DNA of 32,730 nucleotides from positions 1 through 32,730 of IMG/VR virus record IMGVR_UViG_3300047354_000144. One strand, 5' to 3'. The notes under the pieces are model-generated. The model made no database searches. It saw nothing but the letters and a program-made list of their open reading frames with translations, and was not told where the DNA came from. Position numbers and translations under genes: made by a program. Below, in pieces: positions 10,992 through 21,736 of this stretch. This DNA is from a virus. Positions within the stretch are counted from its first letter, which is position 1. Every line of letters begins with the position of its first letter.

Positions 10992-11192
10992 TTATTTAGC
11001 CTTGGCACTATCAATATAGTCTTTCTCAATCTGATATGGTTTCTCTTCTCCAGTCCACAGTTTATAACCCTGCACTATCTCTGGTAGTAACCACTGGTCC
11101 ACCCGATAGCAATGCTTCCAGTTGACAGGATGAGAACAACTCACCACTACAACAGTAAAGAATGCTCGTAGGTGGATCCAGAGACTAAACAT
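10992..11192 (-). CDS. Small probable lipoprotein
   Basis: The 66-residue product starts with a short hydrophobic segment (FFTVVVVSC, about 11-19) ending in a lipobox-like V-V-S-C, which would give a mature lipoprotein of about 48 residues. The mature part has Trp, Tyr and charged residues and no known motif. The start overlaps the stop of the secreted metalloprotease-like gene (TAATG), so the two are probably translated together. A membrane-tethered partner of that protein, or a small outer-membrane lysis lipoprotein, are both possible; neither is shown. Confidence 0.6.
   Translation of the reverse strand: MFSLWIHLRAFFTVVVVSCSHPVNWKHCYRVDQWLLPEIVQGYKLWTGEEKPYQIEKDYIDSAKAK
10993..10999 (-). 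promoter_or_regulatory. Late-promoter-like motif (CTAAATA)
   Basis: The minus strand reads CTAAATA, a shortened variant of the late consensus, 24 bases upstream of the ATG at 10969. It includes the stop codon of the upstream gene, so part of the match is forced by coding. Confidence 0.35.
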
Positions 11193-11866
11193 TACTCTTT
11201 AATATATCCGAAGTCTACCAGATACTTTCTAGTAAGAGCAGTAGGTTCGTAAACCTCCCACATTTTACCACCAGCACATGCTGCGAGAGCATTCATTGTC
11301 ATGTTTTCGGTACGACCTGCCCACTGTGCTTCTGCTTCCCAAGGTACAGCAGACTCAGGGTAAGTGCGTTCTGCCAGCACACGCCAGATCATAGGAACTT
11401 CATCCTCGGGTTTGATGATAGCAATCAGACTATTATCAATCGTGCCTGCCATACAATCTTGTGCTGCATGCCATCCTTCATGACGCATAACCATCATCAG
11501 TGTACCAGGACGACCCATGTGTTTCTTGTTAAGGAAGAAGTTGTTACTCACAGTATGGTATACCCCACGATGTCCTTTGGGGAAATACTTCTCGTCAGCA
11601 AGGAATACATTCACACCAACTTGATTGAGTGAGTGTAGGATGTTATGGAACTCACCAGTGACGCCAGTGAATTCTTCAGTGTTAGCATACTTGTTTGAGA
11701 TATCAAGCATAGAGTATACTTTCACTACATCATCAGTGCATTCACCAAGGAGCATACACCCCATAGCATGTGGTGTGTTGTAGTCTTCTTCGGTGATTGG
11801 TTCTGCTTGCACAGGAATAGCAATCGCTGCTACTACTGCTAGCAAACTCATAATAATGTTTTTCAT
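11192..11866 (-). CDS. Secreted HExxH zinc-metalloprotease-like protein
   Basis: Residues 1-21 are a clear Sec signal peptide (MKNIIMSLLAVVAAIAIPVQA), so the protein is exported to the periplasm. HEGWH (129-133) fits the HExxH zinc-binding and catalytic motif, and WEAEAQW (176-182) supplies possible third-ligand Glu residues about 45 residues later, the gluzincin arrangement. Six Cys are present (37, 43, 138 and others), consistent with disulfides in the periplasm. AAGG ribosome binding (AAGGAGA) lies just before the ATG, which overlaps the mazG stop. Proteolytic activity is an inference from the motif. It could act on envelope proteins or peptidoglycan-linked substrates during infection. No close named family was recognised. 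Confidence 0.75.
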   Translation of the reverse strand: MKNIIMSLLAVVAAIAIPVQAEPITEEDYNTPHAMGCMLLGECTDDVVKVYSMLDISNKYANTEEFTGVTGEFHNILHSLNQVGVNVFLADEKYFPKGHRGVYHTVSNNFFLNKKHMGRPGTLMMVMRHEGWHAAQDCMAGTIDNSLIAIIKPEDEVPMIWRVLAERTYPESAVPWEAEAQWAGRTENMTMNALAACAGGKMWEVYEPTALTRKYLVDFGYIKE

Positions 11867-18640: not shown

Positions 18641-18670
18641 ATAAAAAGAGACCCCCTAAGGGAGTCTCTT
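18641..18670 (-). terminator. Rho-independent terminator after the beta-barrel gene
   Basis: On the minus strand AAGAGACTCCC and GGGGGTCTCTT pair (one G-U wobble) across a UUA loop and are followed by TTTAT as part of a TTTTTAT run. It isolates the outer-membrane protein gene from the gp43 operon. Confidence 0.88.
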
Positions 18671-18696
18671 CAGTTCCTAGTATATAGGAGGTTTTA

Positions 18697-19068
18697 TCAG
18701 AAGGAGTACTTCAAACCCAACTTCGTTCCGTAACCACGGTCAACGTTGTCGTCACCTGATCCAACGAAGGAGACTTCGCCATATGCTCCAAGAGCATCGG
18801 TCAAACCGATACCAACGCCTGCCTTGCCAGAAGGAACGGTGTCGCTCTCAGCACCGTCAGGGGAGACTACAGTAGCGCCGCCTTGGACGTAGTACGAAGC
18901 GTTCTCACCAATAGCGCCTTCGTAACCCACGTGCAGGTCAGTCGCGGTTCCATTGTAGCTGGATCCCGTGAAACCAGAGTTGGCTTCCACGTTAACGTAG
19001 GGGCCAGCGAAAGCGGCACCAGCAGAGACAGAAAGGGCAGCGGTTGCTGCGAATACAGATTTGATCAT
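18697..19068 (-). CDS. Small outer-membrane beta-barrel protein
   Basis: Residues 1-21 are a Sec signal peptide ending in AAFA, followed by GPYVNVEANSGF. The mature protein of about 102 residues shows alternating polar/hydrophobic strands (DLHVGYEGAIG, ASYYVQGGATVV, AGVGIGLTDALGAYGEVSFVG) and ends in LGLKYSF, a C-terminal aromatic beta-signal used by the BAM complex. This fits an eight-stranded OmpA/Opa-like barrel. The coding sequence is visibly richer in G+C than its neighbours, suggesting transfer from a host. It is a monocistron, with its own consensus promoter, a structured leader and a terminator. A role in altering the host surface is plausible but inferred; no receptor or porin function can be read from the sequence. 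Confidence 0.82.
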   Translation of the reverse strand: MIKSVFAATAALSVSAGAAFAGPYVNVEANSGFTGSSYNGTATDLHVGYEGAIGENASYYVQGGATVVSPDGAESDTVPSGKAGVGIGLTDALGAYGEVSFVGSGDDNVDRGYGTKLGLKYSF

Positions 19069-19174
19069 TTTTGTTTAAAATTTATTTGCTTGTGGAGTTT
19101 AACCCACAGATGATAGAAGACCCGACTAGTCTTCGTTTTTGTAACAACTCGCAATGAATTGCTAGCAAGTATTT
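19069..19174 (-). promoter_or_regulatory. Structured 5' leader of the beta-barrel gene
   Basis: About 100 bases separate the promoter from the ATG. The leader can form a 6-bp hairpin (19116-19121 with 19129-19134, 7-base loop), a 5-bp hairpin (19091-19095 with 19104-19108) and a small GCAA/TTGC hairpin (19151-19162). No clear Shine-Dalgarno precedes the ATG. Control of translation or message stability is possible. No known riboswitch class is recognised. Confidence 0.45.
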
Positions 19175-19203
19175 AGTATAACAGGAGTTGGATTATCTGT
19201 CAA
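19175..19203 (-). promoter_or_regulatory. Consensus sigma70 promoter for the beta-barrel gene
   Basis: On the minus strand TTGACA (19203-19198), a 17-base spacer and TATACT (19180-19175), with an extended -10 TG, give a strong promoter. The end of the -10 box overlaps a CTAAATA late-type string (19176-19170), so the gene might also be read late. Confidence 0.8.
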
Positions 19204-20052: not shown

Positions 20053-20553
20053 ATGAAAAAACTCATCCCTGTCGTAATGATTTTAATATCTGCCTCGGCT
20101 GCTCAAGCAGGTGGATTAGTGAGTTCACAATCTTCTAGTGTTCAACTAACTGTTGACGCTGCTAGATCAACTGCCGTAAGAGTAGGCAACTCCTATAGTA
20201 TTTCAGGCACCAATGTTGGCACCTCAGATGGAACAACCGCTGGTGTACTTTCAACTGGCACGATTACCAGTGGAGTATATTCTCCTGGTACGATTTCTGC
20301 AAGTCAACTTTCGGCAACTAACGGAGAGTCATTCTCTTACAGCACTTCCTTTACTCAAGGTGATGCTATCCCAACTGCTGCTCCTACTGTAGGAGATGTT
20401 CCTAACTTCAGTAATGTAACTTCTTACACTGCTGGTTCTGCTGGTTCTCTAGCAGGTACTGTACTTTCTACAGGTGCTCTTACGGTGACAGCTGGTGGAG
20501 CTGGTACTACTGCAACTGGACAATTCGTAAGTGAGATCACTGTAATTGACTAA
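20053..20553 (+). CDS. Secreted Ser/Thr/Gly-rich protein (island gene 1)
   Basis: Residues 1-19 are a Sec signal peptide (MKKLIPVVMILISASAAQA). The mature protein of about 147 residues is almost free of charged residues and is built of Ser, Thr, Gly, Ala and Val in beta-prone repeats, for example AGVLSTGTITSG and GTVLSTGALTVTAG. No Cys and no catalytic motif are seen. It looks like an exported, beta-rich, fibre- or surface-forming protein. It is the first gene of a plus-strand island and is followed after 11 bases by the next gene with a strong AGGAGG ribosome binding site. Confidence 0.78.
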   Translation: MKKLIPVVMILISASAAQAGGLVSSQSSSVQLTVDAARSTAVRVGNSYSISGTNVGTSDGTTAGVLSTGTITSGVYSPGTISASQLSATNGESFSYSTSFTQGDAIPTAAPTVGDVPNFSNVTSYTAGSAGSLAGTVLSTGALTVTAGGAGTTATGQFVSEITVID

Positions 20554-20564
20554 GGAGGATCGCA

Positions 20565-21002
20565 ATGAATACTATGATTCGTTGGTCTGCGATAAGTGCG
20601 GCGGTTGCAAGTGCCATACCTGTAGCTGCCCTGGCGGTCCCCGTAGTCCCAAATTTCACACAGGGCTCAATGACCAGCAGGACGGAGACCACTCAGACGA
20701 TAACTGAGACAATAAATAGCATGGATTATAATACTGGGTATCAGTATTCTGCTACTGGTAATGGCGTTACCGCTAATGGGAACCTGTCACCTGGCACGGG
20801 TTCCACAAATGTAACTATTAATGGAGTGACTTCATCATGGACTGGGGTAACAAACAAACCTACATTCACACAGACGATACCAGGACAAGCGTTTCAATTC
20901 ACAGAAACTTATCAAGGACCTGGTTTAAGCAATCAGACAATTATAAACAGAACCACAGAGGTTACAAGCGTAACCGATACTACAAGTATCTTCTCCCAAT
21001 AA
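20565..21002 (+). CDS. Secreted Thr-rich protein (island gene 2)
   Basis: AAGGAGG lies just before the ATG. Residues 1-24 are a signal peptide (hydrophobic AISAAVASAIPVAALA). The mature part of about 120 residues is Thr/Asn/Gly-rich (TETTQTITETINSM, NGVTANGNLSPGTG) with no Cys and little charge, as in island gene 1. No family was recognised. Its last 166 bases overlap the reading frame of island gene 3 in the +2 frame. Confidence 0.72.
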   Translation: MNTMIRWSAISAAVASAIPVAALAVPVVPNFTQGSMTSRTETTQTITETINSMDYNTGYQYSATGNGVTANGNLSPGTGSTNVTINGVTSSWTGVTNKPTFTQTIPGQAFQFTETYQGPGLSNQTIINRTTEVTSVTDTTSIFSQ

Positions 21003-21736
21003 CATTATTATTCGCGAACCCTTCTTATGCTGAAACTGTTGGTGGTGTGTCTGCTACTGCTTCTCCTGTGGCTAATAGTTCAGGCTCCGTTACAAACCAA
21101 GCTATTCAAGTCCTTCAGGGACCATATATTACAAACACCTACGGTGGAGGTATACAGTGTCAGGGTCCCACTCGCAACTTCACCCCGTATGTAACTGGTA
21201 GTGCATCAGCATCTAAACCATACGAACCTTACTATAATGATCCAGTATATGATGTCAGTGATCTAGATGAAGATGGTTTGATTGATAATCCAGGTGACAT
21301 CCTCTTCCATAAAAAAACTAGAACTGGACAGAAAGATAACTATAGTCTAGGTGTAGGTTTCTCTATGACATGGAGCACACCTACCGATAAAAAATTACAA
21401 GATCTCTGTAAGGAAGCAGCTGCTTCTAACATTGAGATGATGCAGCAAATAACTGCCAACAAAAGATTAGACTTTGAGATTGCAAGACTTAAGAATTGCG
21501 GAACACTAATGAAGGATGGAATTAGTTTCCACCCTAACAGCCCTTACTATAAAATATGTGCTGATGTCGTAGTGCAGAACGTGACTACAATCAAACAGCA
21601 TAGGCATTCAATCCCTAGTCCTACTTCTTCGTCTTCGCCTTCACAGACCGAAGTTTTGCAATCGCTTGATTCCGATCCCTCTGTTCTGCTCGGCGGTCCT
21701 CTACAGACAAGACCTTTAGTTTCTTCCCCCGAATAG
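20837..21736 (+). CDS. Exported protein with Ca-binding-like loop (island gene 3)
   Basis: The frame from the ATG at 20837 encodes 299 residues. A signal-peptide-like segment occurs only at about 44-65 (KRNRYYKYLLPITLLFANPSYA), with the likely mature start at ETVGG. The first 43 residues, polar and in the overlap with gene 2, may not be translated; but no ATG, GTG or TTG is available nearer to the signal. The mature protein has a D-x-D-x-D-G-x-x-D loop (142-150), as in dockerin or thrombospondin type 3 calcium sites, several Cys, a Cys-containing helical region (208-270) and a Ser/Pro-rich tail. The 3' end overlaps the convergent gene by 116 bases. Confidence 0.68.
   Translation: MDWGNKQTYIHTDDTRTSVSIHRNLSRTWFKQSDNYKQNHRGYKRNRYYKYLLPITLLFANPSYAETVGGVSATASPVANSSGSVTNQAIQVLQGPYITNTYGGGIQCQGPTRNFTPYVTGSASASKPYEPYYNDPVYDVSDLDEDGLIDNPGDILFHKKTRTGQKDNYSLGVGFSMTWSTPTDKKLQDLCKEAAASNIEMMQQITANKRLDFEIARLKNCGTLMKDGISFHPNSPYYKICADVVVQNVTTIKQHRHSIPSPTSSSSPSQTEVLQSLDSDPSVLLGGPLQTRPLVSSPE

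Follow-up and report, generated by a model that had tools for sequence, protein, structure and literature searches.

Structured 5' leaders are known from mRNAs of T4-like cyanophages, and the literature searched on such leaders names only others than the one described here, namely wcaG, manA, PhotoRC-II and the glutamine riboswitch (PMC2864571, PMC9964418). In Escherichia coli, the 5' leader of ompA acts as an mRNA stabilizer (Emory 1992 and Arnold 1998, cited in PMC3997798). Post-transcriptional control of a cyanobacterial porin mRNA via its 5' UTR has been reported for the Yfr1-som system of Prochlorococcus (PMC6778093). At the protein level, the closest described system is the family Phage_OMP (Pfam PF24653, phrog_417; also DUF680, PhCOG173 and T4-GC 241), whose members are usually annotated as DUF680 domain proteins or hypothetical proteins. 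The family is already known, without an assigned function, and the PF24653 documentation consulted makes no mention of a leader RNA or a cassette.

The window analyzed here is a stretch of 32,730 nucleotides (IMGVR_UViG_3300047354_000144, positions 1-32,730) and covers part of the genome of a T4-like Synechococcus phage closely related to ACG-2014d, with full-length identity to ACG-2014d isolates across the 4.8 kb surrounding the OMP gene. The encoded OMP protein ends in KYSF and matches the Phage_OMP profile at 171 bits (E 1.5e-50; residues 1-123, profile positions 1-122 of 122), exceeding the curated cut-off of 27 bits along the whole domain. It is a full-length family member that does not differ from the family at the protein level. 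At least 460 phage records contain relatives, and almost all of these phages are cyanophages. The features of the OMP unit are the following:

18643..18671, minus strand: intrinsic terminator closing the unit, a folded hairpin followed by U
18697..19068, minus strand: phage OMP gene, 123 aa (PF24653, phrog_417; annotated DUF680/PhCOG173)
19006..19068, minus strand: signal peptide code MIKSVFAATAALSVSAGAAFA, with a putative cleavage site and constrained codons 2-12
19085..19137, minus strand: conserved two-hairpin leader RNA, model R1, 53 positions (67.6 bits, E 3.1e-16)
19091..19108, minus strand: hairpin B, YGYRGG/UYYRCR stem with an invariant G-U pair, 3 of 6 pairs compensatory
19116..19134, minus strand: hairpin A, variable 6-bp stem with the conserved loop ANGUCGR, 6 of 6 pairs changed on both sides
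about 19143..19163, minus strand: hairpin 1, from a single-sequence fold, adjoining the putative transcription start
19175..19203, minus strand: sigma-70-type promoter, TTGACA-17-TATACT with extended -10 (TG), 11 of 12 matches

As a preliminary description of this DNA had proposed, the OMP gene is a self-contained unit; it has its own promoter and its own terminator and is found in varying neighborhoods. Its genomic slot varies across phages and includes hsp20/gp43, td, psbD, pstS (near the OMP gene in S-TIM5) and glycosyltransferase genes. The consensus promoter given in that description is confirmed at 19203-19175 on the minus strand and its type is conserved, with sigma-70-type promoters scoring at least 10 in 63% of 127 distinct upstream regions compared to 2.9% of dinucleotide shuffles. 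The T4 late-promoter word TATAAATA is found in 52% of the same 127 regions and in 0.7% of dinucleotide shuffles; the exact word is absent from the window's own leader, which reads TATACTAAATA. Early expression, as initially suggested, is not supported given the frequency of this late-promoter word and is best regarded as uncertain. The distance between promoter and leader is variable among relatives, ranging from 8 to over 60 nt. The predicted -10 element is separated from stem A by 8-12 nt in many relatives; in the window the gap measures about 40 nt and is occupied by hairpin 1. No pho box (CTTA-N7-CTTA) with fewer than two mismatches was found in the 232 nt upstream of the gene in the window, and no NtcA box in the window's upstream region. 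The expected terminator is present at 18643-18671, just outside the interval 18697-19203 covered by the preliminary description. It was not listed by a simple terminator scan and was seen by folding, and an intrinsic terminator is located within 110 nt downstream of the gene in 61 of 62 distinct relatives compared to 2% of shuffles.

A host origin of the OMP gene is not supported. The gene is indeed richer in G+C than the window as a whole (54.8% and 41.2%, respectively), with the excess visible in GC2 (0.52; Ala/Gly) as well as GC3 (0.53 versus about 0.40), and is in part high in G+C by amino-acid composition. The host derivation initially proposed is not borne out, since a single genome scan returned just two contigs, from MAGs of unrelated bacteria (Rhodobacteraceae and Lewinella), and no true host homologue. 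Both contigs also carry the phage leader and therefore probably represent phage contamination. An earlier study likewise reported no homologues of the OMP gene (DUF680) in its hosts (PMC6224464). Elsewhere in the window, beside hsp20, three ORFs are encoded at 20053-21736 (plus strand) on the strand opposite to the OMP gene, two of them overlapping (phrog_564, phrog_650/DUF6322 and phrog_848); the first has a signal-peptide-like start and the gene at its place in ACG-2014d is annotated OMP1. At 11192-11866 (minus strand), the window encodes an exported-looking 224-aa protein of phrog_591, function unknown and without a Pfam match, containing an HEGWH motif similar to the metalloprotease HExxH.

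Covariation among relatives shows that the leader is selected as an RNA structure. The leader of the window is about 100 nt long and folds into the three hairpins noticed previously, at -25.4 kcal/mol (z -2.9), with 2 of 200 shuffles equally good. A pattern of about 53 nt is shared by 80 relatives and consists of a hairpin with a free stem and the loop ANGUCGR, followed by CAUC, a second hairpin and AG. For covariation analysis, we used 44 relatives in a MAFFT alignment made without fitting to any structure. Paired cells amount to 94.7% in these sequences compared to 77.8% in shuffles and at most 56% with slid partners, and the covariation score is 0.558 instead of 0.222 (shuffled) or at most 0.20 (slid). 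Two-sided changes are observed in 9 of 12 pairs, bearing out the leader as a real structured element, and RNAalifold recovers both hairpins A and B unaided. The loop GUCG is present in all 44 aligned leaders, and hairpin B, flanked by invariant CAUC and AG, has 100% of cells paired with the G-U pair found in 44 of 44 sequences. We sought additional leaders with a pattern that ignores stem A; this independent set comprises 64 new leaders, 91% of which can form stem A, compared to 13% of shuffles. Compensatory changes in the leader exceed the shuffle and slide controls, with further evidence from the porin clade described below. The hairpin conservation in related phages on which the preliminary description had staked its case holds for hairpins A and B and only loosely for hairpin 1, which is conserved by position and not by sequence. 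The 42 nt equivalent to hairpin 1 have a mean z of -2.08 in 86 relatives without an adjacent promoter. In four leaders (L024, L026, L045 and L060), stem A is kept via compensatory changes and the GUCGA loop is lost, with GACAAC-like loops found instead.

Inspection of the fold and the alignment revealed no expression platform, neither a leader terminator nor a sequestered Shine-Dalgarno sequence. The four-way junction of the window's single-sequence fold, closed by a UUGCU/AGCAA stem, is not conserved in relatives, and alifold yields no structure worth noting that extends into the coding region. An upstream ORF starting at an AUG in the loop of some leaders was rejected as not conserved. The sole candidate for a terminator within the leader (19116-19134, plus strand) corresponds to hairpin A read on the opposite strand and was likewise rejected. 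A Shine-Dalgarno sequence is absent in the window, as described earlier, but many relatives carry AAAGGT or GAGGT at that site. Searches of the window against 4227 Rfam families gave no match at gathering score, and searches around three leaders gave only chance-level matches to unrelated families (E at most 10).

The leader is found once per genome across a range of cyanophages. A covariance model built from the leader alignment (R1) has a single match in the window (67.6 bits) and matches the upstream regions of 80 of 82 relatives. Eleven of 15 isolate genomes contain R1 in one copy each, directly upstream of the OMP gene and nowhere else. Strong scores span isolates of at least 8 genera, with weaker yet credible matches in S-TIM5, P-SSM3 and P-TIM68. 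No leader is present in the T7-like phages S-RIP2, S-TIP37 and P-SCSP-R27W or in ACG-2014f, nor ahead of the second OMP paralogue that six phages carry, and all of these leaderless OMP genes encode other signal peptides. Exceptions are one OMP gene with the signal peptide and no leader (L078) and one with the leader and an MKQF signal peptide (L122). A function as a general export signal or regulon element was rejected based on the single copy per genome. Several cyanophages carry a second PF24653 gene of the GPYVESKHEFKG type (L315-L320), leaderless and with an MKA or MKK signal peptide.

The shared distribution of promoter, leader RNA and signal-peptide code suggests that the three form a portable 5' cassette. 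A pattern match led to a phage contig where the leader is located ahead of a 490-residue OprB/SLH porin unrelated to the OMP protein. The leader is present in 14 of 80 phage-borne relatives of this porin, all 14 with an OMP-type signal peptide (MFKSA..AATLAATPLVAGAAFAEPY), while the remaining 66 possess no leader and other, mostly host-like signal peptides (e.g. MKLKQLMLAPVALGMVAPVAANA). The occurrence of the leader together with the same signal-peptide type before an unrelated porin, and of neither in the other 66, indicates portability, and this comparison of sequences draws its strength from a single porin family in which both states occur. Positions 1-30 of the Phage_OMP profile match the N-termini of leader-bearing porins. 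Counting each distinct N-terminus once gives an agreement of leader and signal-peptide type of 32:1 versus 1:34, counts that are not independent by descent; the one odd leader-bearing N-terminus reads MIIKS for MIKS and is of the same type. Within the OMP gene, fourfold-site identity is 0.76 for codons 2-12 compared to 0.43-0.63 elsewhere, which fits constraint on the 5' coding RNA. The leader-bearing porin is flanked by glycosyltransferase and hli, like the OMP gene in S-PRM1 and P-TIM68, and this shared slot suggests an in-place replacement of the mature part between OMP and porin. No separate OMP gene was found on the leader-bearing porin contigs, which are fragments. Overall, at least 136 viral contigs encode cyanobacterial-type OprB/SLH porins, and among isolate phages only 6 records match. 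Leaderless phage porins with host-like signal peptides (L245-L314) have other 5' UTR types in common, either TGTCGTTTAGTACTAAAA or a TTAAGAATT..AATTCTTAA hairpin followed by TGTCCTATAGTACAAACAAA, that look like further conserved leaders.

Structure prediction indicates that the OMP protein is probably an exported beta-barrel-like protein bound for the host outer membrane. The signal peptide recognized earlier is of the Sec type by sequence, with M-I-K-S, a hydrophobic Ala-rich core and an AFA-G junction, and corresponds in the predicted model to a helix at residues 3-14 followed by a break. The C-terminal aromatic beta-signal is likewise present, with F123 invariant in 60 sequences. The model (mean pLDDT 80, pTM 0.65) consists of the signal helix and six strands. 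Its best PDB structure matches are the small barrels of the OmpX/Ail/OmpA type, among which phage lambda Lom is also counted, with OprF at Z 10.7, OmpA at 10.3, OmpX at 9.9 and Ail at 9.5, in addition to NspA. These matches (Z 9.5-10.7) superimpose at 3.3-4.1 Å over 103-112 residues with about 14% identity. Foldseek gave a weak best E of 0.0097, and a PDB sequence search with the OMP protein returned no match. Avidins and autotransporters are weak fold matches to the model (Z about 7). Small outer-membrane barrels possess eight strands, the lowest number known for single-chain barrels in this membrane, whereas the OMP model has six. An OmpA/OmpX-type fold class is likely based on the model, but a closed monomeric barrel is not established because of the lower strand number. 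The original assignment as a beta-barrel outer-membrane protein is supported in the form of an exported, OMP-like beta protein.

The OMP gene is costly on some hosts and dispensable in culture. Passaging of S-TIM4 on Synechococcus WH8102 yielded 13 mutations in the DUF680 gene, many of them disruptive; within each population, their frequencies added up to about 100% (PMC6224464). This S-TIM4 gene carries the R1 leader (67 bits). In the ACG-2014d isolate Syn7803US113 (KJ019077.1 129213-129676; L337), an exact 95-bp tandem duplication frameshifts the OMP gene, which is intact in about 46 sister isolates. The passage mutations together with this frameshift indicate both cost and dispensability, and fit an envelope-modifying protein whose value varies with host and setting.

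We propose, with middling confidence, that the OMP gene is run by the portable 5' cassette, that its exported barrel-like protein probably alters the host envelope and that the leader acts after transcription. The conserved cassette would comprise the sigma-70-type promoter, often together with a late promoter, the cis-acting two-hairpin leader and the signal-peptide code, with the unit closed by its own terminator. The exported protein would probably reach the host outer membrane and change the envelope during infection, helping on suitable hosts and exacting a cost on others. The leader would act in cis on its own mRNA, most likely protecting the 5' end against host ribonuclease and determining how strongly the mRNA is translated, by analogy with the E. 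coli ompA leader. As no attenuator or sequestered ribosome site is visible, the most economical interpretation is 5'-end protection combined with translation-level control. The conservation of loop and linker speaks for a bound factor, of host or phage origin, for which the invariant loop and flanks may form the site. An invariant loop, CAUC linker and G-U pair would not be required in a pure 5' shield, and their conservation points to specific recognition.

Such recognition could also mean that the leader is a sensor that turns the gene on or off when loop, linker and hairpin B are occupied by an RNA-binding protein, a host small RNA or a specific ligand. This is possible though doubtful: invariant unpaired residues (GUCG in 44 of 44 leaders, CAUC and AG) lie beside a freely varying stem A, and host porin mRNAs are sRNA targets in this group, as in the case of Yfr1 on PMM1119 and PMM1121 (PMC6778093), but the leader lacks a visible expression platform, the four leaders mentioned above have lost the GUCGA loop and, unlike in a regulon, the leader does not recur before genes of another class in these genomes. 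More speculative, and in our view rather unlikely, is a new class of sensing RNA, so far confined to cyanophages, that would read a host or infection signal, gate envelope remodeling and be passed on as a cassette of leader and signal peptide. That the leader is instead a DNA element, a regulator or recombination site with incidental hairpins, is highly improbable. Its proximity to the promoter and the movement of the 5' segment between genes would fit, but stem A is free in sequence with pairing kept, the promoter distance varies and the invariant G-U pair as well as G-C to G-U changes are signatures of RNA. The invariance of this pair in 44 of 44 sequences is explained by RNA and not by DNA.

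Regarding the protein, a tentative alternative to exclusion is that it lets nutrients or solutes pass in the infected cell, as a channel or a surface factor. Other phages have an OprB-family porin under this cassette at the same genomic slot, the S-TIM5 gene is near pstS and a role in phosphate limitation was proposed by earlier authors (PMC6224464), but a monomer of about 101 mature residues with six predicted strands is unlikely to form an open pore and the window's 232 nt upstream contain no pho box with fewer than two mismatches. Superinfection exclusion through a protein inserted early that masks or alters the receptor, as raised in the preliminary description, appears unlikely; the predicted small OMP-like fold near OmpX and Ail, the sigma-70-type promoter and the host-dependent cost in the S-TIM4 passage agree with it, but an early need would be expected and the T4 late-promoter word is also found in one leader out of two. 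Quite unlikely, too, is a minor virion component. LC-MS of CsCl-purified S-SZBM1 particles detected the OMP protein with 2 peptides (PMC9146016) and the S-SZBM1 gene carries the same leader (R1, 66 bits), but the S-TIM4 protein was counted among those not associated with particles (PMC6224464) and vesicles in the lysate could bring an abundant outer-membrane protein into particle preparations as a contaminant.

The leader is widespread, outside Rfam and tied to one gene without known function, and is common to OMP and porin via a segment joining RNA and signal peptide. It represents a defined, testable element for phage control of envelope proteins, and the published experimental evolution of S-TIM4 indicates that the OMP gene matters for fitness on a particular host. 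If the sensing-RNA reading were true, the invariant loop and linker would read a signal that times or gates envelope remodeling, and unrelated envelope genes would exchange the cassette. The OMP leader differs from the cis-RNAs described in cyanophages in its gene, its two-hairpin architecture and the lack of an Rfam match. The Yfr1-som pair, in contrast, is a host system with an sRNA acting in trans. Similar to the ompA leader, the OMP leader would place hairpins near the predicted 5' end of an outer-membrane protein mRNA with no need for an expression platform, and the two may share their mode of action. This likeness need not reflect homology, and unlike in the ompA leader, loop and linker of the OMP leader are conserved in sequence.
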